This document shows positions 539-36,669 of a DNA stretch of 43,843 nucleotides, piece by piece. The translations under genes and the position numbers were made by a program. Location of the stretch: IMG/VR virus record IMGVR_UViG_3300024273_000355, positions 1 through 43,843 of that record. One strand, 5' to 3'. Below the pieces are notes generated by a model, which was not told the DNA's origin, searched no databases, and saw only the letters and a list, made by a program, of their open reading frames with translations. Numbering within the stretch: the stretch's first letter is position 1; every line of letters begins with the position of its first letter. Origin of the DNA: a virus.

Positions 539-561
539 TAGAATGTCTTTTCTTTTGAAGT
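539..561 (-). promoter_or_regulatory. Candidate phage RNA polymerase promoter (phiOR-like)
   Basis: This is one of three copies of a 23-bp element. On the minus strand it reads ACTTCAAAAGAAAAGACA, then TTCTA, followed here by GGGG. It starts 4 bases past the terminase stop codon and points to the gene-free genome end, the position of phiOR in T7. The TCTA-GGG end resembles the CTATA-GGG initiation end of T7 promoters. Identity to the copies at 25256-25278 and 36647-36669 is seen directly; the promoter role is inferred. Confidence 0.65.
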
Positions 562-565
562 AAAC

Positions 566-2263
566 CTATGAATACGCTCGTAACCGTTGCAGGGACTGCT
601 TTGACGTAGGTTTTTTGTGGTTCAAACTTCTAAAGATATTTGCTCTACGCCGCAACTCATCCTCTACCTTCTTTTTCTTGTATCCTTCAAGGGCATCGTC
701 AGAGTTTTGCTTAAGAATACCGTACTCATTCCAGAACTGAACACCAAGTGTCAGGGCATCAAGTCGGTCATCGTGAACCAAAGCACCACGCTCCTTAGTA
801 ATATGAGTCAGTTGGTAAACCATAGAGTAGTAAATACTCTTAGGGTCTCTTAGACCAAACTCAATATCTTTTTTCAGAGCCATATAGTCAATAACTAATC
901 GATGTTGGTTCATTAACGGCTCAAGTGAATCGATCACACGCTTCTCTTTTTGGACGTTGTTCCTAATTTCTTCCACGCCTACTGGGTAGATAGAGTTTAG
1001 AACAGGCATCAAGAGGTTAGTAAACATACCATCACCAAAGTTGCTCTCTGTTACAATCTTGTTTACCTTGTATTCCTTGGCTATTTCCGCAAGCTTTACT
1101 AAGTTTTCTTCTACATAGCCGCCCTGCATACCACCAAAGGCAGGTACAAATACTTTTCCTAGTAGGTGGTTGACCACAGCCCAGCCCATTTCGTCTTGCC
1201 CCCGACCACTTGGGTCAATAGCTAAGACCGAACCTTCGTAGTCCCCATATGCTTCTTGGGATATAGGACGTTGTAAAGAGTCTCCACTAAACCCAATGTT
1301 TGGAAGCTCTGTAATTGACTGGCTATTGTTGGATGACCACACTAATCTAGTAGGTGCTTGTGACGCATCAAGGTCGCTAACGATCAAATCCCTAGTCTTT
1401 AGCGGATACTTTTCAGCATCGCTCAAGGTAGTATCGATCATAAACTGTAATTTAAACCCGCTCCTACCGTAGCTCAACTCACGTTGGTACAGGTCTTCCT
1501 CAGTAAAGCGTTCGTCCGTAGACGTATTCACTAAACTAGGGTCTTTTGCCATATCCTGAATAAGATAATCAGCCAGACAACCTTGGTAACTATTGACATT
1601 ACTAGGGTATCGTGCAGGGTAGATACGAGTTACGTAGCCTTTGTCCCGCAAGCGGCTGTAAATAGACTCAGAAGTCTGGGGCGTACCTAGTACAAGAATC
1701 TGAGCATCGTCTGTTGTCTGGAGAATAGCTTCGTATTCAGCAACTTGTTGTAGCAAATCCTGCCGCCTCTTCTCAGTAGCGGAGTTTTGTTGTCCTTCAA
1801 CGTCATCAGAGATGAGTAAAGAAGCACGGTTACCCTGTAGCTGGGAGGTAATACCCAACGCTTTTACAGATGGTTGAACAGATACATTGCATCCGTTAAC
1901 GTCAAAAGCTACTACAGAGCTTCGCTGGTCAGACCGTGGCTGCAAGTGTGCCAAGATGTCCATTGTGTCAATCAGTTTGCGAATAAAGATTGAAATGTTG
2001 TCTGAGTGGCTACCAGATTGTGATACGATCAGTATCTTTTCATTAGGGTTTCGCAGCAGCCGCCAAGCTACATACGCCCCTGTAATCCATGTCTTACCAA
2101 TACCTCGCAAAGCCTCTAGCTGTGAGCGCTTGTTGCCTTCTTGCAAGTAGTCAGCAATATAGTACTGCATCCTTGTTGGTGGTGGTAGTCGTAAGTGTTT
2201 CCAAGTCAGCCGTAGGAACACTTTAAAGTCCTTAATAGCCAACGCAATTTCATTTTTTTCCAT
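566..2263 (-). CDS. terL: Large terminase subunit (T7 gp19-like)
   Basis: ATP-driven motor and nuclease that packages DNA from concatemers into the prohead through the portal. The 565-residue length is close to T7 gp19. The N-terminal half contains an ATPase core with LEALRGIGKTW (adenine/Walker A-type segment, about residues 49-59) and a Walker B-like LLISDDVEG (about 150-158). The C-terminal half has the nuclease-type segment VLAIDPSGRGQDEMGW and later VHDDRLDALTLG, both typical of terminase nuclease domains. The start is preceded by AAAGGAGAATT. It is the last gene of the late operon, after the small subunit, and is followed at once by a candidate phage promoter. Confidence 0.95.
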   Translation of the reverse strand: MEKNEIALAIKDFKVFLRLTWKHLRLPPPTRMQYYIADYLQEGNKRSQLEALRGIGKTWITGAYVAWRLLRNPNEKILIVSQSGSHSDNISIFIRKLIDTMDILAHLQPRSDQRSSVVAFDVNGCNVSVQPSVKALGITSQLQGNRASLLISDDVEGQQNSATEKRRQDLLQQVAEYEAILQTTDDAQILVLGTPQTSESIYSRLRDKGYVTRIYPARYPSNVNSYQGCLADYLIQDMAKDPSLVNTSTDERFTEEDLYQRELSYGRSGFKLQFMIDTTLSDAEKYPLKTRDLIVSDLDASQAPTRLVWSSNNSQSITELPNIGFSGDSLQRPISQEAYGDYEGSVLAIDPSGRGQDEMGWAVVNHLLGKVFVPAFGGMQGGYVEENLVKLAEIAKEYKVNKIVTESNFGDGMFTNLLMPVLNSIYPVGVEEIRNNVQKEKRVIDSLEPLMNQHRLVIDYMALKKDIEFGLRDPKSIYYSMVYQLTHITKERGALVHDDRLDALTLGVQFWNEYGILKQNSDDALEGYKKKKVEDELRRRANIFRSLNHKKPTSKQSLQRLRAYS

Positions 2264-2284
2264 AATTCTCCTTTATGTTTTAAA

Positions 2285-2298
2285 GCTCTTTAGAGAGC
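2285..2298 (-). other. Small hairpin between small and large terminase genes
   Basis: GCTCT and AGAGC pair around a 4-base loop in the 94-base gap between the two terminase genes. It has no clear U-run. It could be an RNA processing site or a translation-spacing element; the stem is short and support is weak. Confidence 0.25.
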
Positions 2299-2357
2299 CT
2301 ACACGCCCTTCCCCGCCTTTGCAGGTAGGGTAGGGTGGATAGACTCATAAAAAGCTC

Positions 2358-2624
2358 TTAGTGAGCGATAGAAGCCTTCTCAAGCATATCTTCTACGCTA
2401 AAGCTGGCTTCGCCTTTCGACTCGGTTGCAATCCTTCTAATTGAATCAGTCAGACTCATCAGCGACTCAGACTCGACTATGTCGGCAGTAATGTCGTTGT
2501 CCTTAAGAAACTTAATAGCGTGAGCTAGAATCTTAGGGTCTTCAAGGTTGGCAGCAAGTTGATCTGCTACCAGCCCGTGAAGTGAGTTTAACTGAGCCAA
2601 GGATGCTTTATCTTTAGTAGTCAT
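2358..2624 (-). CDS. terS: Small terminase subunit (T7 gp18-like)
   Basis: DNA-recognition partner of the large terminase. At 88 residues it is almost the size of T7 gp18 (89). It is mostly helical and rather acidic, with an N-terminal LNSLHGLVADQLAANL helix and IKFLKDNDITADIVE, a pattern usual in gp18-type subunits. The assignment rests on size, helical pattern and position just upstream of the large subunit, an order that is constant in T7-like phages. The start ATG lies within 4 bases of the preceding gene's stop, with GGAG about 12 bases upstream. Confidence 0.85.
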   Translation of the reverse strand: MTTKDKASLAQLNSLHGLVADQLAANLEDPKILAHAIKFLKDNDITADIVESESLMSLTDSIRRIATESKGEASFSVEDMLEKASIAH

Positions 2625-2627
2625 ATA

Positions 2628-5738: not shown

Positions 5739-5747
5739 AGTATTTCC

Positions 5748-6851: not shown

Positions 6852-6864
6852 ATAATATTCCTTA

Positions 6865-8895: not shown

Positions 8896-8907
8896 GTAAT
8901 ATCCTTA

Positions 8908-9456: not shown

Positions 9457-9480
9457 ATATTCCTCTTATAATTTTAGTTG

Positions 9481-9909: not shown

Positions 9910-9932
9910 AAATAGTCTCCTTTAGAATAAGT

Positions 9933-9963: not shown

Positions 9964-9983
9964 ATTAATAAGTTTAAGCATTA

Positions 9984-19852: not shown

Positions 19853-19878
19853 AACCCCCAAGATTTCTCAAGGGGGTT
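19853..19878 (-). terminator. Transcription terminator after major capsid gene (Tphi-like)
   Basis: On the minus strand AACCCCC pairs with GGGGGTT around a 12-base loop that can pair further (TTGAGAAATCTT). T-rich sequence (TCTTGTCTTTATATTT) follows. It lies 9 bases past the capsid stop codon, where T7 has Tphi. Partial read-through here would give more capsid than tail protein. Confidence 0.85.
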
Positions 19879-19887: not shown

Positions 19888-20856
19888 TTAGGCTACTGTG
19901 CCGCCAGTGATCACGCATGAACACGCAGGCTTCAGAACACCCATACCGTATGAGTAGTAGGTAGTCATCAAAGTTGCCAGTTGCTCAGGGATGTAATTTA
20001 CTTCAGAAGTAATGTCCATCAATTTAGCAACAGCGACTGCTTCGCTGGTGAACAACAAAGCTTTCAGCTTCTTGTTTACACCGCCAACGCTAATCGTGCT
20101 GTCAATAGGGATGTAGTTAGACTTGTAAATACGAATACCAGCAACTTCCATTACTGTACCCTTGTCCAAACCGCCGTTAGTGCCAGCAGTAATGTCCTTG
20201 TTTACAGCGTTAGACTGAGCCAAGTAAGAGTAGATTTTTGGAGAAACAACCAAGTACTTCTCGCCAGAAACGTCTTTCTCTTCCATAGCTGCCACGGCTT
20301 CGAACACTGCTTCGATCAAAGCATCGCCCTTAGCTTTAGGAGTAGCGCCACTGTCGATTACATCGTTGTTAACTTCAGTACCGTCAGCCTGCACAGCAGA
20401 GCCACCGATTGTACCAGAAGTTTGTGATGCAGTAATCAACGCAGCCGCAACAGCTTTGTCGATCTTAACAGCCAGAGCTTCACCAGCTTGTTTAGCCAGT
20501 TCGCCACGGGTTTCGAAATGCAGTACTTTCTCTTCGAACTTGTCAACTGCCATAGCAAAGTATTCCAGAGCATCGATTGTGATAACACGCTCTTTAACTG
20601 GGATAGTTGCCATTGTCAACTCAGTGCCGGGCACGTGAGTTTGGGTCTGTGAGTCAGAAGACTGACCGATCACAGGGATAGAGATTGAAGAACCGCTATC
20701 GATAGACTTAGTGGTCACCAAGTCAAGGAACAACTGCTTACGGTCAAATGCGGTGAGCACTGTGCCGTAGTAGATTTCCAATGCGTTTGCCATATCGGTA
20801 GGCAAGCCACGTGGGGATGCACTGTTGTTACCGATGTTATTTACTAATAGAGCCAT
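19888..20856 (-). CDS. Major capsid protein (T7 gp10-like)
   Basis: The 322-residue product forms the icosahedral head shell, HK97 fold. It is a little shorter than T7 gp10A (345). Recognisable parts are the N-terminal arm with LEIYYGTVLTAFDRKQLF, the long spine helix region VDKFEEKVLHFETRGELAKQ, and AGIRIYKSNYIP in the P domain. It follows the scaffold gene after a 213-base gap and precedes the terminator. No sign of a gp10B-type frameshift extension is visible, because the downstream bases form the terminator stem. The ribosome-binding site is GAGG with a 9-base spacer. Confidence 0.95.
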   Translation of the reverse strand: MALLVNNIGNNSASPRGLPTDMANALEIYYGTVLTAFDRKQLFLDLVTTKSIDSGSSISIPVIGQSSDSQTQTHVPGTELTMATIPVKERVITIDALEYFAMAVDKFEEKVLHFETRGELAKQAGEALAVKIDKAVAAALITASQTSGTIGGSAVQADGTEVNNDVIDSGATPKAKGDALIEAVFEAVAAMEEKDVSGEKYLVVSPKIYSYLAQSNAVNKDITAGTNGGLDKGTVMEVAGIRIYKSNYIPIDSTISVGGVNKKLKALLFTSEAVAVAKLMDITSEVNYIPEQLATLMTTYYSYGMGVLKPACSCVITGGTVA

Positions 20857-21069
20857 TTTAATTTACCTCGAATGTTTGATTAAGATTGTATTTTGTAATC
20901 TTTGCTGTCTTTATTTTCTTCTTTAAGTTGTCCACTGTGTCCGAACGCATCTTCTACTTAGGGCTTACAGAATACTTATTAATACAAGCATCAGGGTTAC
21001 GGTGTGTCCTTTTGGGAATTGAATGGGGACAAAGGCTAAAGGAGACGAAACGCCAGTGCCCCCAATTAC
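20857..21069 (-). other. 213-base leader of the major capsid gene
   Basis: This gap between scaffold and capsid genes has no convincing gene. A 30-codon reading frame (20858-20950, product starting MRSDTVDN, very Lys-rich) ends 1 base before the capsid start but lacks a good ribosome-binding site. An A-rich stretch, 20904-20928 read on the minus strand, loosely resembles the 23-bp candidate phage promoter but with altered spacing. Since T7 places its strongest promoter here, the gap may hold a diverged promoter; that is speculation. Confidence 0.35.
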
Positions 21070-21897
21070 TTACAAGATTCCGCGCTTACGAGCCGCGAGG
21101 TATCGCTGGTCTACCATATTGGTATACTTAGCGTCCTTGCCGTATAAGCGATCAGTTGCAGCTTTTTGCCACTCGTTCTTGTCGGTATAGGGCTGCAAAC
21201 CGCTTGTGGGTGCGTTGCCTTCTAACCGTCTTGTTTCACGTGTTTGTGGTTGTGCTTGATCACGCTTAAACTTCATATACTCAAGTTGTGCGATAACCTT
21301 GTCTTTATCTACAGCGTCAACGGCACTGTTGTATTCTTTAATTGTAGCTGGCGGCATATTTACCGATGCCCAATTAATAATATCAACGTACTCTTGTTGA
21401 CCGCCAACAGATTCGTAGATTGAACCACGAACTGTTTCGGCATAAGCTTGCTGGCCTTGAATGTATTGATCTACCTGTGTACGGGTAAACCCCATCTTTT
21501 CAAGGTTGGCGTAAGAAGTGTCTGAAAGGCTGCCTTTTTCTACAAACTCTTGTTCGTAGGCAGCAACGCTGAGAGAACTAGGTGCTTGCTCTTCTTTTGG
21601 AGCTTCACTTTTACTCTCTTCAGCTTTTGCTTCAGCAGGTTCTTGTTTGGGCTGGCCTATTTTTTTTTCAAGTTCTTGATATGCCTTAAGCAAATCTTCT
21701 TGAGATTTAAATTTACCGCCCAGCATTTCTTCTTGCTTAGTGCCGTCTGGGTTATACCCTTCTGGCATCCCAGTTTCTTTTTCTGATTGGGATTGTTGAG
21801 ATTCGCGGAAACGAGCCAAAGCTTGTTGCTCGACTTGTTCTCGCTCTGAAATAGGAGGAGCGCCTGCCCCGCCTTGTTCGTTGTTATTTTCTTCCAT
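21070..21897 (-). CDS. Capsid assembly scaffolding protein (T7 gp9-like)
   Basis: The 275-residue product is very rich in Glu, Gln, Lys and Ala and low in hydrophobic residues, as scaffolds are. GGKFKSQEDLLKAYQELEKK (about 61-80) is a segment typical of T7-like scaffolds. The C-terminal part ends in a basic helix (MVDQRYLAARKRGIL), the expected capsid-binding end. It lies between portal and capsid genes. Start and upstream stop overlap (TAATG). Confidence 0.92.
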   Translation of the reverse strand: MEENNNEQGGAGAPPISEREQVEQQALARFRESQQSQSEKETGMPEGYNPDGTKQEEMLGGKFKSQEDLLKAYQELEKKIGQPKQEPAEAKAEESKSEAPKEEQAPSSLSVAAYEQEFVEKGSLSDTSYANLEKMGFTRTQVDQYIQGQQAYAETVRGSIYESVGGQQEYVDIINWASVNMPPATIKEYNSAVDAVDKDKVIAQLEYMKFKRDQAQPQTRETRRLEGNAPTSGLQPYTDKNEWQKAATDRLYGKDAKYTNMVDQRYLAARKRGIL

Positions 21898-22085
21898 TAC
21901 TCACCCTTAGCAGTTACTTTTTTAGGAGCTTCTACAGCAGGAGTCATATCAATGCTATTTGGATAGCCCCTTTTAGCTTCTTGCTCTTTATCGCGCAAGT
22001 AGTAATCAGCGTCTGTAATAACATTTGGATTTTTTTTCTTGTATCCCTCTTGTTTGAGTTCGTACAATGATTTTGTTGCAGCCAT
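21897..22085 (-). CDS. Small protein between portal and scaffold genes
   Basis: The 62-residue product is charged and soluble (MAATKSLYELKQEGYKKKNP, then DADYYLRDKEQEAKRGYP). It has a strong ribosome-binding site (AAAGGAGATATAA) and overlaps the scaffold start. No family is recognised. Small proteins at this position in aquatic T7-like phages are usually taken as head-assembly or minor virion proteins; this is by position only. Confidence 0.75.
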   Translation of the reverse strand: MAATKSLYELKQEGYKKKNPNVITDADYYLRDKEQEAKRGYPNSIDMTPAVEAPKKVTAKGE

Positions 22086-22107
22086 TTATATCTCCTTTAA
22101 TAGCTAG

Positions 22108-23670
22108 TTACTGTTGTTGCATCATTTGCTCAGTGCCTTGTTTGGTAACGCCATCTACGACATTGCCCATACCCTGTTGCATCATTTGCTGTTGTTGTGC
22201 TTGTTGTTGTTCTTGTTGTATCTGTTCGTCAGATTTGACCAAATCAGTTACATCTAAGCCCAAGCTGTTTGCTATTTTACTAATGTATACGCCGACATTC
22301 ATTCGGCTTAAAATAATATCAGGACTACCCAACTCTTGTATAAGCTGGTTAAACTGACGAATCTTGTCTAGTTCTACGTTGCGACCAAGCGCCTCAACAC
22401 CTGTTACAATAGCCAGTTCAATACCCAAAGCTTCAACGTTCACATTGGTACGCTGCAACAGCAGGTACGCCAGTGGGCGCTGTAGTTCAAGGGAAAGGAT
22501 ACTGTATACGCCGCCAAGAGATTTCTCAAGGTCAGCCGCCATGTAACGGATTTCGGTAGCAGTGGTACGCTCAGACTCTCTTGCTGCGCTAGAGGCAACC
22601 AAAAAGGCTTGCTCAAGGCGGCGAGTAAGGTCTTGCACCATGTTCATAGGAACTTGTAGGTCATTGCCTTTGTCTACTCGCAACACTGTAATGTCTTGTT
22701 CTAGGTCACCCAGAATACAGACACCGTTCTCAGCGCCGTTAATATCGTCTACGTCAATGACAGAGCCAGCCCTTTTACCAAAGAGAACACGCGACATGAC
22801 TGAAGATGCTTCAAGCAATAACTGGTACAAAGCTTCTAGCGAACGGAAGTCACCAAGATACTGCTCAACCAAGCCACGCCCATAGCTTTCGCCATTGATA
22901 GATGTCCAGCGCAACGGGATGAAAGGTAGCTCTCTATCGTTGCTGTATATAATATCAGAGTCTGGTAACAGTACCTCTTCAATTTCTTGAAACTCGTACC
23001 AAACACCTTCTTTGCGGATAGCGCGTGTGTAAATAGTTACTTTAGTTGCGTCAGCAAGGTCTTTGTCTGCTGCTAGTGCTTCTATAATATCTAAAGGCAA
23101 TGTATTTTTTGTAACAGTTTCTCTGCTGATAATTTCAAAAGGGTTGCCGCTAAAATCACGGGCAACTACGTAGTTATCTAACCTGTAACTTTTAAGACCT
23201 TTTTCAGTCTTATATAAGAGTGCGTTGCCGCCAATAACCAAGGACTTAATTGCCTCGTATATTGGAACACGGAGTGCTTCGCGCTCTATCTGTTTCATCA
23301 TTTCTTGTTCCAGAACAACTAGATTTTTTTCTAGTTCTACTTTACCGTTCTGTTGTTGTTGTTCGACCATGTCTACAACAGAGGCATCCGGAATAAGACG
23401 GAAGAAGCTTGTGTTTGGAGGCAACAAGGCAAGCAATAATTTACTTGACAAATTGTGAACCAGACGGCTTCCTACGGCTTGGTAGGGGGTGTCAATGTCG
23501 TCAGTCTCTGTGTGACCATCTTCAGTTACAACAGAGGGTATAGTGAGTTTTGAACACTCTCTAGCACGATCTAAAACAGCAGAACGGTCAGAATCTAATT
23601 TAGAAAACTTTTGTTTTGAAGTTGAGTACTCATTAATAAGCTCCTCAACTGTAAAAATTTTTGCTGCCAT
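22108..23670 (-). CDS. Portal protein, head-tail connector (T7 gp8-like)
   Basis: The 520-residue product is close to T7 gp8 (536). It forms the dodecameric ring through which DNA passes. Typical segments are an N-terminal helix with the RARECSKLTIP stretch, DTPYQAVGSRLVHNLSSKLLLALLPP (in two parts, about residues 60-85), ESYGRGLVEQYLGDFRSLEAL in the core, and AFLVASSAARESERTTATEIRY near residue 330. The C-terminus is a Gln-rich tract, Gln/Met repeats from about 482 on. AAAGGAAAAAT precedes the start. Confidence 0.95.
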   Translation of the reverse strand: MAAKIFTVEELINEYSTSKQKFSKLDSDRSAVLDRARECSKLTIPSVVTEDGHTETDDIDTPYQAVGSRLVHNLSSKLLLALLPPNTSFFRLIPDASVVDMVEQQQQNGKVELEKNLVVLEQEMMKQIEREALRVPIYEAIKSLVIGGNALLYKTEKGLKSYRLDNYVVARDFSGNPFEIISRETVTKNTLPLDIIEALAADKDLADATKVTIYTRAIRKEGVWYEFQEIEEVLLPDSDIIYSNDRELPFIPLRWTSINGESYGRGLVEQYLGDFRSLEALYQLLLEASSVMSRVLFGKRAGSVIDVDDINGAENGVCILGDLEQDITVLRVDKGNDLQVPMNMVQDLTRRLEQAFLVASSAARESERTTATEIRYMAADLEKSLGGVYSILSLELQRPLAYLLLQRTNVNVEALGIELAIVTGVEALGRNVELDKIRQFNQLIQELGSPDIILSRMNVGVYISKIANSLGLDVTDLVKSDEQIQQEQQQAQQQQMMQQGMGNVVDGVTKQGTEQMMQQQ

Positions 23671-23679
23671 ATTTTTCCT

Positions 23680-24186
23680 TTAGTCTCTTTCTAACCAATT
23701 TAAAGTCCACGCAAGGTCTATTGTAGCGGCAGGTGTTGCGGTATGAGCTACAAGCGCAAACTGACCCCCGTTATGCAATACTAACCCAAGACCTTCTGCG
23801 TCAATTTGGGCTAATGAAGCAGAAGGAGGTGTGTTGCCTAGAGCTACGCTTGCTGTCTCATAAATAGTAATTCCTACTTGTCCTCCAACAATAGAGGTTG
23901 CTGTTGTATTAATATCTAACATGCTTTCTCCCCCAACAGAAACCCACGTGCCTCCAACTGCTTGAACAGTGTTATTAACAAGTTGAAAAGTTACTAGGGT
24001 ATTATCACCTATATTAAGCGCCCTAAACTCTAATCTTTGAAGGATAGCACGTAAGTTAGGAATAGTCGCCTCGTTGCGAAACACAGCAAGAATTACAGGT
24101 GTGTTCCCAATGCCGTTTGTTCTATTAGTTACTATGTCTACTGGATACGTACACGGCGTATCTGGGTGTTGGATTATAGTAGTCAT
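23680..24186 (-). CDS. Unknown beta-rich protein, probably structural
   Basis: The 168-residue product is rich in Thr, Val, Asn and Gly with alternating hydrophobic residues (FQLVNNTVQAVGGTWVSVGG and AQIDAEGLGLVLHNGGQFAL), which suggests a beta-sandwich such as those in decoration or fibre-base proteins. No catalytic motif or signal peptide is seen. It lies just upstream of the portal gene in the late operon, so a minor virion role is likely. The ribosome-binding site is weak (TTAGGG). Confidence 0.75.
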   Translation of the reverse strand: MTTIIQHPDTPCTYPVDIVTNRTNGIGNTPVILAVFRNEATIPNLRAILQRLEFRALNIGDNTLVTFQLVNNTVQAVGGTWVSVGGESMLDINTTATSIVGGQVGITIYETASVALGNTPPSASLAQIDAEGLGLVLHNGGQFALVAHTATPAATIDLAWTLNWLERD

Positions 24187-24195
24187 TTAAAAGCC

Positions 24196-24567
24196 CTAAG
24201 CTTTTGTAGGAGTAGAGCCGCCAGTGCCAACTTGACCTGTTTGACCTATGTCTGCTACGATTGGAATTTGCAAAGACTTAGCACCAATTTTAGTGCCTTC
24301 TTTTTTGCGGCGCATTTCTTCTTCTGGAGTTACCGCAGCTTCTTGGGAAGCAGCAGCTTCAACAGCAGGGGCTGATGGAGGTGGTACATAGGTGGGTTTT
24401 TCAACCACAGTGCCGCCGCCGCCTTTGCCGCCCTTTAGCATAATGTTAGGGTTTTGTTTTTTTTGTTTTGTCTCAACTGGAAAGCTAAATCCATTAGCAG
24501 TTGCAAAAGAGTTCATATCGTTGTCAAAACCCAGCAACTGTCGCAGCATTGCAATAAACTTGTTCAT
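24196..24567 (-). CDS. Small virion or assembly protein, gp7.3-like by position
   Basis: The 123-residue product has an N-terminal helix (MNKFIAMLRQLLGF), a Gly-rich turn (KGGKGGGGTVVEKPT), a Pro/Ala-rich linker and a basic motif RRKKEGTKIGAKSLQIPI at about 85-102. Short proteins with a similar basic motif near the C-terminus stand next to portal genes in many podoviruses and are tail-assembly or virion proteins (T7 gp7.3 is the positional match). Similarity to gp7.3 itself is not established here. AAGGAATTACC precedes the start. Confidence 0.65.
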   Translation of the reverse strand: MNKFIAMLRQLLGFDNDMNSFATANGFSFPVETKQKKQNPNIMLKGGKGGGGTVVEKPTYVPPPSAPAVEAAASQEAAVTPEEEMRRKKEGTKIGAKSLQIPIVADIGQTGQVGTGGSTPTKA

Positions 24568-25043
24568 GGTAATTCCTTAATTTTTAATTTGTTGATTAGT
24601 CTTCCAAAAACTTTTTCTACTTCTTGTGGTTCGTAGATAAAGCATTCGTAGGCTTTTAAGCCTTGCATCTTTCGATCAATTTTAAATGATGCATCAGATG
24701 CGTAATAATTTTCTAGTGGCAAATTGTTTTGCACACTTAATACACCAGATTGAATAGCAAGCATATACATTGCTCTGGTGTTTCTGTTCTCTGGTAGGAC
24801 GTATAGGTATGTAAAACCAACCGTTGGCGGTCTCATACCTGAGTAAGTATTGTAAGCAAAACTTGCGAAACCTATAGCTTTTCCGTCTCGCAACGCTAGG
24901 TAGATGCACCAGTGTGTCGCAACAAAGTCCTCTATACTAGCAGTGCCGTAGCCAAATACTTCCTTGCTGAAATTAAGCAATAAGCTTTCCAGTTCTAGTT
25001 TGTATTTGTCTTCATAGACCACAATTGATACCATTTTACTCAT
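24564..25043 (-). CDS. GNAT-like acetyltransferase
   Basis: The 159-residue product follows the GNAT fold order: an N-terminal helix pair (YKLELESLLLNFSKEVFG), strands WCIYLALRDGKAIGFASFAY, then VGFTYLYVLPENRNTRAMYM, which fits the acetyl-CoA-binding strand-turn-helix although the usual Q/R-x-x-G-x-G/A loop is changed to PENRNTRAM. Substrate is unknown. Similar proteins occur at the start of the late operon in other aquatic T7-like phages, from memory. The start overlaps the stop of the small upstream gene (ATGA). Confidence 0.65.
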   Translation of the reverse strand: MSKMVSIVVYEDKYKLELESLLLNFSKEVFGYGTASIEDFVATHWCIYLALRDGKAIGFASFAYNTYSGMRPPTVGFTYLYVLPENRNTRAMYMLAIQSGVLSVQNNLPLENYYASDASFKIDRKMQGLKAYECFIYEPQEVEKVFGRLINKLKIKELP

Positions 25044-25216
25044 TTCGTTTTCCTATCAAGCGCCTCTATGTGCTGGACAAGATACCTAATAACGTCTTGC
25101 TGACCAATCAACCTGCTAATTTGCTCAGGTGAGACAAGGTCTTTGGGAATTTTATTAGGATATTTCTCTAACAAAACTTCAATAACCTGTTCAAAAGCGT
25201 TACTTGTAAGTTTCAT
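25040..25216 (-). CDS. Small unknown protein, first late gene
   Basis: The 58-residue product starts MKLTSNAFEQVIEVLLEKYP and ends in a helix QDVIRYLVQHIEALDRKTK. It appears soluble and helical; no family is recognised. It has a strong ribosome-binding site (AAGGAGATATAA) and is the first gene after the candidate late promoter at 25256-25278. The end overlaps the next start by ATGA, so translation is probably coupled. It was read directly from the sequence. Confidence 0.75.
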   Translation of the reverse strand: MKLTSNAFEQVIEVLLEKYPNKIPKDLVSPEQISRLIGQQDVIRYLVQHIEALDRKTK

Positions 25217-25247: not shown

Positions 25248-25255
25248 TTGTATCT

Positions 25256-25278
25256 TAGATTGTCTTTTCTTTTGAAGT
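25256..25278 (-). promoter_or_regulatory. Candidate phage RNA polymerase promoter, late operon
   Basis: Second copy of the 23-bp element, identical to the others except for one base (ACAATCTA in place of ACATTCTA on the minus strand). It starts 1 base outside the stop codon of the 5'-3' exonuclease gene and 40 bases before the first late gene. Initiation is expected at the AAG/AGG following TCTA. This is where a T7-like phage needs its class III transcription to begin. Confidence 0.7.
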
Positions 25279-25279: not shown

Positions 25280-26059
25280 CTACGTAACTTGTTGATTATC
25301 AACAGGTTTTGGAGCTTCCCAATAATTGACTTTTGTACCATCGAATTGCCTCATGTTTGCCAGCCGCATAACCCAGAGGGCATCTTCTTCAGTAAGCCCT
25401 TTTTTTTCATACGCTGCTACAACAGCTTCCCACATTTCCCGCTCAGTCTTAAGACCGTCTAGGAGTTTACCTGCCTTGACTGCGCCAATGCCGGGGCAAC
25501 CTTTGTAACCGTCTGAGGAGTCGCCTACGAGCGTCTGGAAGTAAGCAAAGCGTATAGCGTCTTTCTCCCTGACCTCGACTTCTTCCCCAGTGTGGTAATT
25601 GTAATGTGTGCCCTCCGTCTGGTAAAGCACATCCTTATCAATAGCACAAACAATGTAATCTTCTGGCGCTGACATTTTGAGCCATACAACATAGTCATCA
25701 GCTTCAATACCATGAACTGTTTTAGTGTTGTATGTCTCAATAGCGTAGTCTAAGATTTCTCGATAGCCCGTAGGCTTACGAAAGTCTTTCCTATTCTCTT
25801 TATAAGAGGTAGGAAGACTAAGCCTAAAATTATCTGTACCAGAAAATATAAGGAAACTAGCATCGCAGTCAGTAGCGCAGGTAACATTAGACATAAGCTG
25901 ATCAAAAGTTCTGTAACACTGCTTAATATCTGTATAATAACTTTCATCTTTTTCCAATTCTAAGCCAGCCAGAACTTCCATTTCGTTCCAGATAACTCTT
26001 TCTTCAATTGCAAATCCAACTTTGTACAACAATGAATCTGCGTCTACTAATGCGATCAT
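25280..26059 (-). CDS. 5'-3' exonuclease, FEN-like (T7 gp6-like)
   Basis: The 259-residue product digests host DNA and removes RNA primers in T7-like phages. Metal-binding acidic residues are visible: ALVDADSLLY (residues 3-12), GIEADDYVVW, VCAIDKDVLY, and GDSSDGYKGCPGIGAVKAGK, which combines the last Asp cluster with the helix-hairpin-helix DNA-binding turn. All belong to the 5'-nuclease (PIN-like) superfamily. It is the last gene of the middle cluster; the stop codon abuts the late promoter. Confidence 0.93.
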   Translation of the reverse strand: MIALVDADSLLYKVGFAIEERVIWNEMEVLAGLELEKDESYYTDIKQCYRTFDQLMSNVTCATDCDASFLIFSGTDNFRLSLPTSYKENRKDFRKPTGYREILDYAIETYNTKTVHGIEADDYVVWLKMSAPEDYIVCAIDKDVLYQTEGTHYNYHTGEEVEVREKDAIRFAYFQTLVGDSSDGYKGCPGIGAVKAGKLLDGLKTEREMWEAVVAAYEKKGLTEEDALWVMRLANMRQFDGTKVNYWEAPKPVDNQQVT

Positions 26060-26482: not shown

Positions 26483-26492
26483 TTGTGTCTCC

Positions 26493-27257
26493 TTATCGAC
26501 TAGCCAAAAGGCTTTTTCGTTTAGTTTTAGTGTTTTCTGTAGTAGTAGCTGATGACCAAGCACCACAACCTTTACAGACATATCGTTGATACTGACCTTT
26601 GTTGGTATAGAAGTAGCCTCGTTTCATAAGGTCTGCTCCACCACACTTGGGACAGCTTTGTTCTTCAGACTCATTGCCTGTTGTAACATTGGGGTGACTG
26701 CTGTACCACGGACGCATACGCAGGTATACCTCTTCTAGTACTTGCACATCCATACAGTTGTACTCACGCATCTCTTCCCACGCCGCATCGTCTTGAGCGA
26801 GGCAAGCAAGCCACAACTCAAACCCCGGATACTTGCCGTGACCAAGCTTACGCGAGGGCACATTAAGTTCAATTGCCAAGTTCTCAAGTGAGTTCTTAAT
26901 GAACCTAAACTCTCTCTTAGCAATCAACAGGGTGTCGATAGTGCGGTAAGGGCTAGGGGGCTTGATACCGTTAACTACCGCTCTTGCGTTAATTACTGGG
27001 ATATCAAATCTCTTGCCGTTGTGGGCAATAGCAAAGTCTGCCGCATCTAACTCTTTAATAATTGACTGTACAATCTCTCTGTCGTTATCACCACGGCTTT
27101 CGTAGTAGCGGATATCATCACCGTATAGGTCTTTCACAGCACAGGACATTATTCGCGTATGGCTTGCTAGTTGCTTCTGACCTATGTTTTGTTTCCACAC
27201 GCCCCAGACGTATGCCAATGAGGGCGCTGTCTCAATGTCTAGTAATATTGTTTTCAT
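26493..27257 (-). CDS. RNase H-fold DEDD exonuclease with C-terminal zinc ribbon
   Basis: The 254-residue product has the three exonuclease motifs of the DnaQ/RNase H-like group: LLDIETAP near residue 5-12 (Exo I), AIAHNGKRFDIPVI (Exo II) and EYNCMDVQVLEEVY (Exo III). A zinc ribbon follows at the C-terminus, CPKCGG and CKGCG about 25 residues apart, which probably binds nucleic acid. It may trim DNA 3' ends or host RNA. T7 itself has no such separate enzyme. The start overlaps the stop of the protease-like gene, and AGGG precedes it. Confidence 0.85.
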   Translation of the reverse strand: MKTILLDIETAPSLAYVWGVWKQNIGQKQLASHTRIMSCAVKDLYGDDIRYYESRGDNDREIVQSIIKELDAADFAIAHNGKRFDIPVINARAVVNGIKPPSPYRTIDTLLIAKREFRFIKNSLENLAIELNVPSRKLGHGKYPGFELWLACLAQDDAAWEEMREYNCMDVQVLEEVYLRMRPWYSSHPNVTTGNESEEQSCPKCGGADLMKRGYFYTNKGQYQRYVCKGCGAWSSATTTENTKTKRKSLLASR

Positions 27258-27835: not shown

Positions 27836-27845
27836 TTTGTCTCCT

Positions 27846-30636: not shown

Positions 30637-30669
30637 TGTTGTAGTCCTTTAAAATCATTAAGCGTATCC

Positions 30670-32523
30670 TTAGTGGGTCTCTGCCCAAGTGTTTCCAATA
30701 GAAGCCGTACCCCTTAGTGGTATACGAAACTTCAAATATTTTGTTACGTCATCAAAGGTTGCTTCAGCAATCTGAGCTACCTCTTTTGAAATATCTTCGT
30801 CACATTCAATCTGTACTTCGTCATGGACGTTAAGCACAAACTCATAATTCTTACCTGCTGTAAACTTGACTGACAAGTTACGATCTAAAAAGATCAGGTA
30901 GTACTTCATAACCAAAGCACCTGCCCCTTGAAGCAATGTGTTCAGTGCGCTGTGGGCTGACCGTATGTGGTAGGGGTTGCCATCTATCGCCTTGAGCGTA
31001 CCAGTCTCTTTGTACACCTTAGCAACCAGTTCTACCAAGCTCCGAATAGCAGGCAATTTTTTAAAGAATTTTTCTTTAAGCTTCTTGCCGTCCTCTGCAC
31101 TACCGCCCACAATCTCACCAATCTTCCCGTCACCCGCGCCATACAAGAAAGCGTAGATGAAAGTCTTAGCGGCATCCCTACTTGGCAACCCTGCTGACTT
31201 CTGGTTAAGCGTGTGGATGTCAGTGCCCTCTTCTTTGTTGCCTTCGTCTACAGCCTTCGAGTATTGACCGCCATCAAACCTCGCCATGAAATGCGATAAT
31301 GTCCTCAACTCCAAGCCGTCAGCGTCACAGCCAACCAGCTTCTTGCCCTTGGGTACTCCAAATAGTTGTCTAGCCTCGTGGCCTTTGTAGGCACGTGAGC
31401 TTGGCACTTGCGCCATGTTGGGGGTGCTGTGTGTGCATCTGCGAGAAACAGCACCTAGCGTATTTACCCTGCCATGAATGCGCTGGTTTTTGTCTACCAT
31501 CTTTAGCCAAGCATTCTTGCCTTCTGCCAACTGACCGACCAGCTTAGTCACGTTAAAGTAGTGAGCCAGGATTTTGCCCTCTGGGAAGTCAAGCCTCTCC
31601 AGCACTAAATCGTTAATCACTGCCTGTCCTGTCTCAGTAAGCTCTTCCGGCTTCCACCCATATACTGTCTTAAGCCACAGCCCAATGTGTTGTCTGCTAC
31701 TAGGGTTGAAGTAAATCTCCTTGAAGTAGCCCCACTCATTTTTTTTATTCATGTGGCAACCCAAAGACTCTTGGGTCAAAAGAACTGCTGACTTTTTACC
31801 GTCCTTGTTGTAAGGCTTTAGAGGGTAGGGCTTTCGCGTCCACTGCTTTAAAGGTGTAAACACACTGAACAATGCCGCCTCTGCTAAGTCTACCTCACCC
31901 AACAACTCAACGTGTAGCTTCTTGGCTTTCTCTACGTCAAACCAAACCCCGTACCGCTCCTGTCTAATAATGATCTTGGCAAACTCTTGCTCTAACCACA
32001 ATGCTTCAGGAGGCGTTCCCGGATACTTGGTCAACTTTTCATACAAGGATGCAGTCACCTCTGTGTCTTGTCGGCAGTACTCTATCATTGATGGTGTCAG
32101 CTTCTCCCATTGGTTCTCTTCAGAACCGAACTCGCCTTTTTGCTTACGCAACCGATAACCCCAAGCTTTAAGGCTGTGACTCCCCTTTAGTTTAGGGGGA
32201 ATCGTTTTCCTATTAGCGTCAGTAAGTGCTATATTTGGGTATGCCAATCTACTAAGTATAAGGGTATCGGCTGTCCCGCCATACGTCCACTCAGGGTAGA
32301 GCTTGAGTATAACAGGGATGTCAAAGGCAATAATGTTGTGTCCAACCAGCAAGTCAGCCTTGGATAAAAGAGCTAGTCCTTGCTCGATTGTCCCGGCGAC
32401 TTTTGCCAAGGGTAAGGAGGCGTAAACTTCGGTGGGGGAATCATCCACCTTAATAGAAATGCAATGAATCTTTGTAGCTTGTTCATAAAGTCCGTCCGTT
32501 TCAATATCAAAAATCACTGTCAT
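30670..32523 (-). CDS. DNA polymerase, family A (T7 gp5-like)
   Basis: The 617-residue product is somewhat shorter than T7 gp5 (704). The 3'-5' exonuclease domain is intact: FDIETDGLY (Asp6, Glu8), LVGHNIIAFDIPVI and YCRQDTEVTASLY. Polymerase motif A is GCDADGLELRTLSHFMARFD, motif B DAAKTFIYAFLYGAGDGKIG, and motif C VLNVHDEVQIE. The start chosen has CAGGAG 6 bases upstream and overlaps the primase-helicase gene by 17 bases. A host thioredoxin clamp, as in T7, cannot be judged from sequence alone. Confidence 0.95.
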   Translation of the reverse strand: MTVIFDIETDGLYEQATKIHCISIKVDDSPTEVYASLPLAKVAGTIEQGLALLSKADLLVGHNIIAFDIPVILKLYPEWTYGGTADTLILSRLAYPNIALTDANRKTIPPKLKGSHSLKAWGYRLRKQKGEFGSEENQWEKLTPSMIEYCRQDTEVTASLYEKLTKYPGTPPEALWLEQEFAKIIIRQERYGVWFDVEKAKKLHVELLGEVDLAEAALFSVFTPLKQWTRKPYPLKPYNKDGKKSAVLLTQESLGCHMNKKNEWGYFKEIYFNPSSRQHIGLWLKTVYGWKPEELTETGQAVINDLVLERLDFPEGKILAHYFNVTKLVGQLAEGKNAWLKMVDKNQRIHGRVNTLGAVSRRCTHSTPNMAQVPSSRAYKGHEARQLFGVPKGKKLVGCDADGLELRTLSHFMARFDGGQYSKAVDEGNKEEGTDIHTLNQKSAGLPSRDAAKTFIYAFLYGAGDGKIGEIVGGSAEDGKKLKEKFFKKLPAIRSLVELVAKVYKETGTLKAIDGNPYHIRSAHSALNTLLQGAGALVMKYYLIFLDRNLSVKFTAGKNYEFVLNVHDEVQIECDEDISKEVAQIAEATFDDVTKYLKFRIPLRGTASIGNTWAETH

Positions 32524-34144
32524 TGGGTGCTCCTGTCTGTTCGATTTCAAATTCATCATCCATCTCGTGGACAATGCCTGTGTCTCTATCATATCTGAAG
32601 CCTACTGTGCGCCCTGTAGCGCTACCACTGAACCTATCCTTTAGGATACGCACCAAGCCTTTGTTACGCTCTGCTTCATCTTCATGTAGGGTATTACGTT
32701 CAACACCAAACATTGCGTATGACCACCGCATAATCGCCCGTGAGCCTGTGAACTGACCTTGTTCAGTCTTTCCCCCGGCCTCGTGACTAGCTCCTGATTT
32801 TGGAGGGTTCAAGTGTGACACAAGTAATATCCAAATGTCAAGCTCTCTTGCTATCCCTGCAACCTCTGCCATCAGAGCATCTAGGTTGCGTCTTTCGTCT
32901 TGTGCGTGGGCGTTCAGCGCCGTTAAGTTATCAATATAGAATATGCGGCAACCGTAGTTGTGAAACATATACCGTATCTTGTCACTTATTGTAGTCCAAG
33001 CGTTGCTCCCAAAATTATCAAACATATATAGCTGGTCTTGAAAACTACCTACAGTTTTTAATAACTTTTCTTTGTCAATGGTCACGTTGGGCAAGTGGTA
33101 ATGAATACCATCGATCTTACCGGATGCCCTTAGCAGTGTCTCCTTTGTGCTTTGCTCCAACATAAAGGTAGCTACTTTCCAGCCTTGCTTTAAATCAAAA
33201 GCAAGCTGGCTCATAACAAAGTCTGTCTTTCCCACACTCACGCCTGCTCCGACTGTGACCACCTCACCAAACCTGCGTCCGTACAACAGCTTTGTCAGCT
33301 TGCTGTAGTAGTACGCAAAGCCCATCTCAATTGGCTCGGCTACTGTATCTAAAAGATCGGCAGGCGTTACAATATCATCAGGCTTAAACTTCTCAGCGTT
33401 GTAAAACGTGTTTACTACACCAGCCTTGCCTTTGTAAATTAAAACCTCATTAGCATCTTTGTAATCAGGGTGTCGGATAATACGTACTTTGTCAACAGGC
33501 AGGATGCTTACACATTCTGAAACTGCTTTTCTACCCGGCTCGTCATTGTCGAACCATAAGTAAATTTCTTCGTATCCCGACAGCCAACCTAGGTGCTGAG
33601 AAATTTCTTTCTTAGCGGCAGTGCTACCGTTCTTAATGCTGACCACTGGGTACTTACCGTCAAAGGCTGTCGCTACTGATAAACAGTCGATCTCCCCCTC
33701 AGTGATCACAATCTTCTTGCCTGAGTTGCCCCAAAGTTGCTGGCCAAACATCAGCGCTTCTTTGGCCTCTCCAATAAACTTAAACGTCTTGTCAGAATAC
33801 CGTAGCTTTTGAGCTACAATTTCTTTTTCTTTGTTAAAGTAGTTGGCTACTTGACACAGCGCACCTGAAGCATCGTGACCTAAGCCATATCGAAACTGCT
33901 GTGCAATGTTCTCAGGTATCTTGCGTTTGGTTAATGCTTGGTACTCATAATTCAATAATGCCATCGGCTTGCCTTTGTAAGCAGGTCTGAGACTTTGACT
34001 TTCGCCTTCCTCCCTACTCCACTTAGAGCAAGCAAAGCAAAACGAACTTCCAGAAGAATATACAGCACGTGCATCTGAGCTACCGCAATCACCACAGGCA
34101 GTGTGGTGTAGAAACTCTCCGCTATCGGCGTTATCATTCGTCAT
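32507..34144 (-). CDS. DNA primase-helicase (T7 gp4-like)
   Basis: The 545-residue product unwinds DNA and makes primers. The N-terminal zinc site is Cys17/Cys20/Cys36/Cys39. The TOPRIM primase centre is KKIVITEGEIDCLS (143-156) and WFDNDEPG (197-204). The RecA-type helicase Walker A is GAGVSVGKT (299-307), followed by FYIDNLTAL (Walker B-like) and LLVSHLNPP. The tail is acidic and ends in DSDF; an acidic tail with terminal Phe is the polymerase contact in T7 gp4. It overlaps the 54-residue gene upstream by 11 bases. Confidence 0.95.
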   Translation of the reverse strand: MTNDNADSGEFLHHTACGDCGSSDARAVYSSGSSFCFACSKWSREEGESQSLRPAYKGKPMALLNYEYQALTKRKIPENIAQQFRYGLGHDASGALCQVANYFNKEKEIVAQKLRYSDKTFKFIGEAKEALMFGQQLWGNSGKKIVITEGEIDCLSVATAFDGKYPVVSIKNGSTAAKKEISQHLGWLSGYEEIYLWFDNDEPGRKAVSECVSILPVDKVRIIRHPDYKDANEVLIYKGKAGVVNTFYNAEKFKPDDIVTPADLLDTVAEPIEMGFAYYYSKLTKLLYGRRFGEVVTVGAGVSVGKTDFVMSQLAFDLKQGWKVATFMLEQSTKETLLRASGKIDGIHYHLPNVTIDKEKLLKTVGSFQDQLYMFDNFGSNAWTTISDKIRYMFHNYGCRIFYIDNLTALNAHAQDERRNLDALMAEVAGIARELDIWILLVSHLNPPKSGASHEAGGKTEQGQFTGSRAIMRWSYAMFGVERNTLHEDEAERNKGLVRILKDRFSGSATGRTVGFRYDRDTGIVHEMDDEFEIEQTGAPNDSDF

Positions 34145-34298
34145 CCTCGTTCCTTGTGTTTGAAATATATAAGAATGTCCGTTCTTTTAAAAAGTGGGCT
34201 TGCTCTAAGGCTTCAGCGTAGGACAGGTGTTCATCCTCATACATCATGTCGCTTACTGTCTGGTTTATGTCGAACAGGTCTATTTCGTTTGTTCTCAT
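34134..34298 (-). CDS. 54-residue acidic protein before primase-helicase
   Basis: Read directly from the sequence: MRTNEIDLFDINQTVSDMMY, then EDEHLSYAEALEQAHFLKER and a short acidic end. Its start overlaps the upstream stop (TAATG) and its end overlaps the primase-helicase start. AGGGCAAGTA precedes the ATG. It is helical and acidic; no family is recognised. Tight overlap on both sides favours a real gene. Confidence 0.7.
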   Translation of the reverse strand: MRTNEIDLFDINQTVSDMMYEDEHLSYAEALEQAHFLKERTFLYISNTRNEDDE

Positions 34299-34567
34299 TA
34301 CTTGCCCTTCTCTAGCTCAAGCTCTACCAGTTTAGCATAGCCGCCTACGTCATGCCAACTGTCATCATAGAACGGGTCACCGTTAGCAATACGTGCCAGC
34401 TTGTTGGCTATCAAGTCCAAGCTCTCTTGCATATAAGCTTCCATTACATCCCAACTATGCCCACGGCGCAGGATATCTTTTAAGTCCTGTGCTGTTGCCG
34501 CTACGTGAACGTACTCGCCATAGCGATTCTCACGTTGTTCTAGCGTATCTGTTACATCTTTAATCAT
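34298..34567 (-). CDS. DUF6378-type small phage protein
   Basis: The 89-residue product has the pattern LEQRENRYGEYVHVA, then MQESLDLIANKLARIANGDP and SWHDVGGYAKL, which I recognise as DUF6378, a small helical family found in many phages. The arrangement of Glu/Asp and a DxxGYA helix resembles MazG-type all-helical NTP pyrophosphohydrolases, but the metal motif is not complete, so activity is not claimed. The start is chosen because of AGGA 5 bases upstream. Confidence 0.75.
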   Translation of the reverse strand: MIKDVTDTLEQRENRYGEYVHVAATAQDLKDILRRGHSWDVMEAYMQESLDLIANKLARIANGDPFYDDSWHDVGGYAKLVELELEKGK

Positions 34568-34970
34568 ACATTTCCTTTGGTTTAGCACCTGACAACTCAG
34601 CCATTCTAGCCAATAAATTGTTAAGTGGTTCTGTCATCATCGCCCTACAGCAACTAACAACGATTGGGTTAAACATCTTACCGCCGTCACTCTCCTCTGT
34701 GCGGTTTAAATACTTCTCAAAGAACTCTTTAACACAGGCTTCTAGCTCTGTCTCCGTGTCGTTAAGCTCCTCAATTGCTTGTTTAAGCTCTTCATCAGGA
34801 TTTAGGCACTCAGCTTCCGCAATTCCCGCCTGTATAGCGGTTAAGATGCCTAGCCTAGTCAGTGCAGCCAGCGCTTCTGGTGAGAAGTTGAATTGAAAGT
34901 CTGAACTACCATCTTCATTCTCACGTATCAATGATACAGAGCCTTCACCCTTGATTGTTTCATCTGTCAT
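34560..34970 (-). CDS. Unknown acidic protein of the replication cluster
   Basis: The 136-residue product is acidic and helical, with a beta-like start (SVSLIRENEDGSSDFQFNF) and a long Glu-rich helix (EELKQAIEELNDTETELEAC). No catalytic motif is seen. It overlaps both neighbours, which supports translation. No family is recognised. Confidence 0.75.
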   Translation of the reverse strand: MTDETIKGEGSVSLIRENEDGSSDFQFNFSPEALAALTRLGILTAIQAGIAEAECLNPDEELKQAIEELNDTETELEACVKEFFEKYLNRTEESDGGKMFNPIVVSCCRAMMTEPLNNLLARMAELSGAKPKEMYD

Positions 34971-35218
34971 TTATTAACTCCAAAGTAATCTTGTAACGTC
35001 TCAACCTGTTCATTGATACAGTTGTTATACTCACAAGCAAACACATCACCTGTGTACATATCACCCCTATAGTTTACGTCCATCAGTGCAATACATTTAC
35101 TGACGATTAACTCAGCAAACTTTTCCTGTGCCGTTGACAAGCGTGTTGGGTCAAAACCATTCGGCGCTTCTGCAAGCAGCCTAGCCTTAACAGCCAGTTC
35201 TTTAATTCGTTCGTTCAT
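34967..35218 (-). CDS. Unknown small protein (MNERIKEL-type)
   Basis: The 83-residue product starts MNERIKELAVKARLLAEAP and contains KFAELIVSKCIALMD. Short phage proteins that start with MNERI/KELA and continue with F-ELIV-C are common in T7-like and other phages, all without known role. The start overlaps the upstream secreted-protein gene by 17 bases; a longer frame from 35362 is rejected because it would cover half of that gene. Confidence 0.7.
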   Translation of the reverse strand: MNERIKELAVKARLLAEAPNGFDPTRLSTAQEKFAELIVSKCIALMDVNYRGDMYTGDVFACEYNNCINEQVETLQDYFGVNK

Positions 35219-35507
35219 ATTCTTTGTCCGCTGTTGTCTTATATGCGTATAGCATACACATCCCATCTTCAAAGAGTAAGAACACAACACCATACCCAGT
35301 CTTCTCGTTGAGAAACTTTGTTGTCCACACCTCACCCAAGGCTTCGAGGTAAATCTTTTCAACCCCTAAGTTTTTATTATACCCTAAGCTGTCCACTTTT
35401 CGCTTAGTTTCCTCTTGACTTGTACAAGTAATAGGTACGGGCAGTGTAGCCGCCATAGCTGACACACTAGCTACCCATAACGCTATTCCTAAAAATAATT
35501 TTTTCAT
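35202..35507 (-). CDS. Small protein with signal peptide, unknown function
   Basis: The 101-residue product begins MKKLFLGIALWVASVSAMAA, a clear Sec signal peptide with likely cleavage after AMA (residue 19). The mature part (about 82 residues) has two Cys (CTSQEETKRK and DGMCMLYAY) that could form a disulfide. The start lies 1 base past the stop of the RusA-like gene. A secreted protein is unexpected within a replication cluster; an envelope or superinfection role is possible but unproven. No family is recognised. Confidence 0.7.
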   Translation of the reverse strand: MKKLFLGIALWVASVSAMAATLPVPITCTSQEETKRKVDSLGYNKNLGVEKIYLEALGEVWTTKFLNEKTGYGVVFLLFEDGMCMLYAYKTTADKEYERTN

Positions 35508-35508
35508 T

Positions 35509-35910
35509 TTAATCATCTTGCTCAATAATAACCACATCACACCTTGGGTTGTCCTTGTCAACACCCCCAAATTTGTAAGAAATCTCGTTTACAAAATTGT
35601 AGTTGTCGTCCTCAAGAATCTCAAACTCTACCAAAGCGTCATGTGTAAACTTTGTAATCACACTACCTATGTTGTCGATATCGAAAGCCCTCTTGGTCGG
35701 GTAGTAAATTGTGTAAGTCACCTTGCACACGTTATCTACCCGCGAAAGCTTTCGAATATCTTCAGCAACCACAATCTTAAACATCTTCTTAAGTTGGTTA
35801 TTCAACTGAAAATGCCAGTTGCGGTAGCCGTTAAGGTTGAGGTAGTACTTTTTCTTAGTATGTCCCCCAACCTCCAACATGATAGGCACACTGAATGCCT
35901 GCTCTGTCAT
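35509..35910 (-). CDS. RusA-like Holliday junction resolvase
   Basis: The 133-residue product has the RusA layout: RAFDIDNIGSVITKFTHDAL with Asp77, Asp79 and Asp91, then EDDNYNFVNEISY with Asp101/102. These acidic residues bind the metal in RusA. It probably resolves branched DNA before packaging, the job done in T7 by endonuclease I (gp3), for which no homologue is seen here. The start overlaps the SSB stop (TGATG). Confidence 0.85.
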   Translation of the reverse strand: MTEQAFSVPIMLEVGGHTKKKYYLNLNGYRNWHFQLNNQLKKMFKIVVAEDIRKLSRVDNVCKVTYTIYYPTKRAFDIDNIGSVITKFTHDALVEFEILEDDNYNFVNEISYKFGGVDKDNPRCDVVIIEQDD

Positions 35911-36548
35911 CAGAAATCTACGTCTGAGAACTCTTCTTCTGTCTTGGCTGGTGCGACTTCAGTTGAATCGAAACCCTCTTCTTCATCGAAATCGTCAGAA
36001 GCGCCTCCGAATGAGACCAGTTCGATAACCTGCATCTTAGTCCAGATCAACGTCACACCGACCTCTTTGGTGTTGGGCATGGTGTAAGGGTTAGCAAACG
36101 CCACACAACGCACCACTGAGCCGTTTCCAATCAAAGGTACAGGGCTGACTACCTGTTTCTTAGTATCGACCACTACGATGCCGCCCTGCTTGCCCTCTGC
36201 CTTGCGGTCATCTACGTCCTTAAGCGTAAACTTAAAGATCACGTTGCCTGACTCCTGCCCGTCTTTGGTGTACTCTTGCGTAAACACTGGGCGGGGCTTG
36301 TACATAGCACCCTTAGCACCCAAAGTTTCTTTGGTCTCTGCCAGCGCAATGTCGCGTAGCTCCTCTAGCTTGGTGATAAAAACCTGTACTGTAGGGTCAT
36401 CAGGGTTACATACAAGTGAGGTGGATAATACACCCTTGTCGTTATACATCCGATCAGGCTCAGTGACTTTACACCACAAAGCTTTTCCCTTTGGCGAGGT
36501 CATGTTGAACCCCTTTACCGCGAACGGTTTTACTGATTTTGTAGCCAT
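35910..36548 (-). CDS. Single-stranded DNA-binding protein (T7 gp2.5-like)
   Basis: The 212-residue product is close to T7 gp2.5 (232). It has an OB-fold-like beta core (about 10-165) and an acidic tail, EEEFSDVDF, ending in Phe, the feature by which gp2.5 contacts polymerase and helicase. It is the first gene after the candidate middle promoter and has AAGGAG upstream. Its position directly downstream of the RNA polymerase gene also matches T7-like organisation. Confidence 0.9.
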   Translation of the reverse strand: MATKSVKPFAVKGFNMTSPKGKALWCKVTEPDRMYNDKGVLSTSLVCNPDDPTVQVFITKLEELRDIALAETKETLGAKGAMYKPRPVFTQEYTKDGQESGNVIFKFTLKDVDDRKAEGKQGGIVVVDTKKQVVSPVPLIGNGSVVRCVAFANPYTMPNTKEVGVTLIWTKMQVIELVSFGGASDDFDEEEGFDSTEVAPAKTEEEFSDVDF

Positions 36549-36583
36549 AATTTTTCTCCTTTTTTACAGCGTTACTTAAGATA

Positions 36584-36621
36584 CTTTAAGATACTTAAGA
36601 GTAACTATTATAGTTATTCTT
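36584..36621 (-). repeat. Leader repeat and inverted repeat before SSB gene
   Basis: CTTTAAGATACTTAAG (36584-36599) occurs identically at 491-506, behind the promoter copy at the genome end. Next to it AAGAGTAACTA (36597-36607) and TAGTTATTCTT (36611-36621) form an inverted repeat with one imperfect pair. Both lie in the first 65 bases of the predicted transcript. A processing or stabilising role is inferred. Confidence 0.5.
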
Positions 36622-36646
36622 ATAGAGTTCTTAAAGAGGTTTTCCT

Positions 36647-36669
36647 TAGAATGTCTTTTCTTTTGAAGT
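36647..36669 (-). promoter_or_regulatory. Candidate phage RNA polymerase promoter, middle operon
   Basis: Third copy of the 23-bp element, identical over all 23 bases to the copy at 539-561. On the minus strand it ends TCTA followed by AGGAAAACC. It touches the stop codon of the RNA polymerase gene and lies about 100 bases before the SSB gene, so the polymerase would transcribe everything downstream of itself. Confidence 0.7.

Follow-up and report, generated by a model that had tools for sequence, protein, structure and literature searches.

A 23-bp element that stands in three places on the gene strand of this phage genome, and would span about -23 to -1, very probably serves as promoter for the single-subunit, T7-type RNA polymerase (RNAP) that the phage itself encodes. 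A sequence-only reading had already proposed that the element is a promoter of the phage polymerase, and the proposal is supported by the position and strand of the copies, their presence in relatives, their concerted change within genomes, the purine at the presumed +1 and the parallel with the cultured roseophage CRP-143. This offers a testable polymerase/promoter pair from an uncultured clade of marine phages, whose closest RNAP in the phage collection is 31% identical. It also offers a natural data set: across genomes whose polymerases diverge, the promoter copies of each genome change together. Phage polymerases with orthogonal specificity serve as tools, and the joint change of a promoter and its reader is a standing question.

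Genome setting and the 23-bp element

The window, that is the whole stretch of 43,843 nucleotides that was analysed, is one IMG/VR virus record. Its genes lie on the minus strand and keep the order known from T7. The early genes, with thyX and phoH after them, are followed by the genes for RNAP, ssb, a RusA-type resolvase, primase-helicase and DNA polymerase, then by nrdA, nrdB, a clpP-like gene, exonuclease, connector, scaffold and capsid, and lastly by tail tube A and B, a large internal virion protein, terS and terL. Judged by its RNAP gene and its T7 gene order, the genome belongs to the Autographiviridae (T7-like genomes). A second exonuclease-type gene (26493-27257, minus strand) matches phrog_403, DNA polymerase exonuclease subunit, and the genome carries a full DNA polymerase (30670-32592) alongside it. 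In the early region 26 sigma70-like matches were found compared with 12 expected, and good matches (TTGACA-17-TATAGT and others) lie at 39604-39725, upstream of the RNAP gene, and at 43579-43787, at the early end (minus strand). These matches are candidate host promoters for the early genes.

The element reads ACTTCAAAAGAAAAGACA(T/A)TCTA on the minus strand, and its three copies (Table 1) differ by a single T/A over 23 bp. Three minus-strand copies with a one-base difference had been reported at these coordinates from the sequence alone, and all were recovered. No further match with up to 3 mismatches was found in the window, and 100 dinucleotide-preserving shuffles of the window gave 0 matches (chance expectation 0). 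When the three copies are aligned, identity is confined to the 23 bp and to a single G that lies two bases further downstream. Copy 1 begins 5 bp past the terL stop, copy 2 begins 2 bp past the exonuclease ORF and upstream of the head-gene operon, whilst copy 3 overlaps the final base of the RNAP stop codon and lies upstream of ssb. The G-rich start described in the sequence-only reading holds for copy 1 (GGGGCAGG) and not for copies 2 (AGATACAA) and 3 (AGGAAAAC). In the non-coding end beyond terL, a hairpin, AAGAGACCGTAAGAGTCTCTT, followed by T5, was observed on the plus strand at 413-433.

Table 1. Coordinates of the element, its landmarks and associated features (window positions unless stated).
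Feature	Coordinates	Strand	Details
Putative promoter copy 1 (phiOR position), ACTTCAAAAGAAAAGACATTCTA	539..561	-	Presumed +1 = G at 538, start GGGGCAGG (GGGG)
terL, landmark upstream of copy 1	566..2263	-	phrog_38, E 2e-100
Terminator-like GC hairpin with T-rich tail, just past capsid gene (T7 Tphi position)	19855..19874	-	
Late transcription unit putatively served by copy 2: small ORFs, head-tail connector, scaffold, major capsid	19888..25216	-	PHROGs
Putative promoter copy 2 (phi6.5 position), ACTTCAAAAGAAAAGACAATCTA	25256..25278	-	Presumed +1 = A at 25255, start AGATACAA (AGAT)
Exonuclease (T7 gene 6 type), landmark upstream of copy 2	25280..26059	-	phrog_107, E 9e-56
Candidate weaker fourth promoter, TTTTTAAAAGAACGGACATTCTT	34171..34193	-	Leave-one-out PWM, 23.3 bits
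AT-rich leader with CTTAAR repeats, downstream of copy 3	36549..36646	-	
Putative promoter copy 3 (phi1.1A position), ACTTCAAAAGAAAAGACATTCTA	36647..36669	-	Presumed +1 = A at 36646, start AGGAAAAC (AGGA)
Single-subunit (T7-type) RNAP, 841 aa, presumed reader	36669..39194	-	phrog_414, E 1.6e-175
Predicted promoters of CRP-143 (L054), TATGTGTCAAGTCTACGCTATA type	5115; 7591; 17388; 41816 (CRP-143 positions)		Before RNAP; after RNAP; before head genes; after terL

A weaker, candidate fourth site (Table 1) was overlooked in the sequence-only reading, whose three copies otherwise stand. It lies 49 bp ahead of the primase-helicase match and inside a 54-aa ORF. An element like it is found at the homologous place in three relatives (G005, G006 and G008), to which the C-terminal peptide of the ORF, FLxExTFL, is also common, and the conservation of the site may possibly have a coding origin. 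We keep the site as a candidate only, because the ORF around it is small and its peptide recurs in these relatives, and because a weak sigma70-like match overlaps the site. In two other relatives (G001 and G002) a strong extra site stands beside the DNA polymerase start instead.

Conservation and concerted change in related genomes

Absence of the element from these positions in close relatives had been named beforehand as evidence that would count against a promoter; we looked, and the element is present. Each of the 21 RNAP relatives from IMG/VR has a version of it directly behind the RNAP stop, one of them (L015) after a 43-bp spacer, and a diverged element stands at matching places in 12 of 12 longer related IMG/VR contigs. 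Versions after terL are found in 7 contigs (G002, G003, G005, G007, G010, G011 and G012) and versions after the exonuclease in 8 (G001, G002, G003, G004, G008, G009, G011 and G012). Moreover, when ~390 kb were scanned at a threshold of at least 16 bits with a weight matrix whose training left out the tested clade, the gene strand gave 27 matches and the opposite strand 0, compared with means of 0.7 and 0.29 matches for 100 column-permuted matrices. A chance repeat is ruled out by this strand bias (27 vs 0) and by the shuffles. The held-out matrix recovers most of the relatives' copies as the top match of their own contig; the after-RNAP copies of G011 and G012 and both copies of G007 fell below significance. 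The G007 copies are the most diverged, and the two agree with each other at 22/24 bases. An exact 19-mer match in L025/G016, whose surroundings look like unrelated sequence, was taken as chance.

Within a genome the copies change together: those of G003 all read CATTTGAAYGGACATT, those of the window CAAAAGAAAAGACA and those of G007 CTAGCRAGGACTG. Copies within a genome were compared with copies that had been reshuffled between genomes inside each position class. Over -17 to -10 there were 1.52 mismatches within a genome compared with 2.88 after reshuffling (P about 1e-4), and the corresponding values were 1.1 and 2.1 over -9 to -2 and 2.2 and 3.2 over -23 to -16. No concerted-change signal was found in the flanks from -71 to -24 or from +1 on. 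The position classes are present across the clade and are therefore likely to be older than these genomes; if so, the concerted change within genomes suggests that the copies track one shared, sequence-specific reader. The extent of the change would give this reader a footprint of about -20 to -1, which is what a T7-type polymerase should cover.

Against this drift some bases are fixed. All 31 sites (28 distinct sequences) have G-14 and, from -9 to -7, GAC, and the presumed +1 is a purine (G or A) in every one of them; G011 and G012 carry the core variant GAC(A/C)CTATA. Three features of a T7-family promoter are found here: a single-subunit RNAP with intact catalytic residues, a repeated, near-identical element on the gene strand that is intergenic and ahead of middle and late genes, and a conserved block of ~17-23 bp that ends at -1 and is followed by a purine at +1.

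The RNA polymerase and a proposed transcription programme

The presumed reader of the element matches T7 RNAP with an E value of 2.4e-62 over the catalytic half, and equivalents of all four catalytic residues checked (D537, K631, Y639 and D812) are present. Its ORF has 901 codons; an ATG preceded by a Shine-Dalgarno sequence is codon 61, and homology starts nearby, so that the 841 residues given in the sequence-only reading are right. The nearest annotated phages by RNAP are Lauvirus lau218 and roseophage CRP-143, at 30-31% identity. The AlphaFold model of the polymerase (mean pLDDT 50) is too poor for placing loops.

In T7 RNAP, N748 contacts -10 and -11, R756 contacts -9 and Q758 contacts -8, and no change is tolerated at -9 to -7 of the T7 promoter (PMC5937735, PMC7948468). 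Across the clade the equivalents of 756 and 758 are S/T and R, and that of 746 is R in nearly all members. The equivalent of N748 varies, as do bases -10 and -11, and no clear rule for a one-to-one code between the two emerged across the clade. Since S/T and R align with T7 R756 and Q758, and GAC replaces CTC, the polymerase likely differs in specificity from those of T7 and SP6. The specificity loop would read the invariant GAC at -9 to -7, with an AT-rich recognition loop acting further upstream.

We propose that host RNA polymerase would transcribe the early genes, including that of the phage polymerase. The phage polymerase would then fire from the copy behind its own gene into the middle and replication genes, and from the copy behind the exonuclease into the genes for head and tail, among which a Tphi-like terminator would follow the capsid gene; transcription would start at the purine following TCTA. 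By eye, a hairpin also stands at the corresponding place after the capsid gene in G001, G002, G003, G008 and G012. Close to the genome end, the copy that follows terL may play the part of phiOR in replication or concatemer processing.

In its AT content the leader behind copy 3 ranks in the top percentile over its first 90 bp, and likewise in most relatives. CTTAAR repeats are found in the relatives as well, whilst in G011 and G012 the densest CTTAAR cluster follows the exonuclease-side promoter instead of the RNAP-side one. By analogy with the T7 primary origin, this AT-rich leader is a candidate primary replication origin. A broader proposal, for which we judge the case only a little better than even, would join a specificity class that is both new and orthogonal (G-14 with GAC, an S/T-R loop, and bases -17 to -10 drifting in concert) to a post-RNAP copy whose CTTAAR leader is the primary origin. 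If this is true, the natural polymerase/promoter variants of the clade record a drift in specificity without breakage of the system.

Alternative explanations

A host promoter, either of the sigma70 type or controlled by a phage activator, gains a little from copy 3, which starts TTGACT if the bases just before the copy are included. However, TTGAC is missing from the other copies and from the relatives, no sigma70-like match (-35/-10 hexamers with 16-18 bp spacing) was found over the three copies, and the conserved block is continuous and not two hexamers. That the phage encodes a T7-type polymerase also argues against a host promoter, which we regard as very improbable. We give equally little credence to a site for another phage DNA-binding protein, or to a replication or packaging signal that is not a promoter. 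One copy does lie near the genome end, the sequence that follows the post-RNAP copy is very AT-rich, and the concerted change is compatible with any trans-acting DNA-binding protein. Yet all copies are oriented along the genes, a purine follows every site, the core resembles SP6 and T7 promoters, and the copies occupy the positions of T7 promoters, which argues against a non-promoter signal. T7 promoters themselves have origin and packaging roles, and because they do both, a role in replication or packaging would be a second role of the element rather than a true rival.

The sites are intergenic, and this is compatible with an element acting at the RNA level, namely an RNase III processing site, a terminator or a leader structure. 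No conserved structure was found in the leader alignment, no match in Rfam and no evident inverted repeat in the 23-mer, and the concerted change ends at -1, outside the presumed transcript. We therefore consider an RNA-level element the least probable of these explanations, its likelihood being close to negligible.

Comparison with known promoters

As a putative promoter of the phage polymerase, the element can be set against T7 (TAATACGACTCACTATAG), where phi1.1A follows the RNAP gene, phi6.5 follows the exonuclease before the head genes and phiOR follows terL, as in the window. According to the T7 record, phi1.1A is 26 bp downstream of the RNAP gene and phiOR about 100 bp downstream of terL, whilst phi6.5 comes past the exonuclease and gene 6.3 and ahead of the connector block; the T7-like positions claimed in the sequence-only reading (after terL, before the late operon and after RNAP) agree with it. 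Strand, purine start, C-7, A-6, T-4, T-2 and A-1 are common to the T7 promoter and the element. The upstream halves differ (AAAGAAAAGA in the element, TAATACGACT in T7), the element has C at -3, and with three to four sites per genome it is less frequent than the T7 promoter. The T7 promoter class proper has CTC at -9 to -7, where all 31 sites have GAC.

The element core GACAnTnTA (-9 to -1) agrees with T7 CTCACTATA at 5/9 positions and with SP6 GACACTATA at 7/9. An earlier description of the element as unlike the T7 consensus is therefore true mainly upstream of -7, whereas the core from -9 to -1 resembles both SP6 and T7. A copy of GACACTATAG lies downstream of the SP6 RNAP gene, as a copy of the element does after RNAP here. 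The SP6 promoter sequence is ATTTAGGTGACACTATAG (PMC9596486, Table 2). Bases -17 to -10 of the element differ from it, and the residues at T7 positions 756/758 are K/S in SP6 compared with S/R here. Likeness to the SP6 class proper, which combines the ATTTAGGTGACACTATAG block with a matching specificity loop, is thus limited to the -9 to -1 core.

Few short promoters read by a divergent single-subunit RNAP are also known from the cyanophage Syn5 (ATTGGGCACCCGTAA, PMC3950665) and from KP34 (PMC6834552), and in both the promoter sequence is unlike the element. In Lau218, where the RNAP is annotated on the opposite strand, no clear post-RNAP or post-terL element emerged. The kind of system is known, then, and the specificity class appears new in a comparison that covered the promoters of T7, SP6, Syn5, KP34 and CRP-143 and did not extend to the large survey of T7-like promoters by Zhu et al. 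2025 (NAR).

CRP-143, likewise a marine member of the Autographiviridae, has the same gene order as the window and a repeated element of its own, TATGTGTCAAGTCTACGCTATA and variants, of unrelated sequence. The paper describing CRP-143 leaves promoters unmentioned (PMC11092137). The predicted promoters of CRP-143 (Table 1) occupy the same three places as in the window, with an additional copy before RNAP, and its RNAP is only 30% identical. The same places, a different sequence and a different polymerase are what a promoter/polymerase pair predicts.
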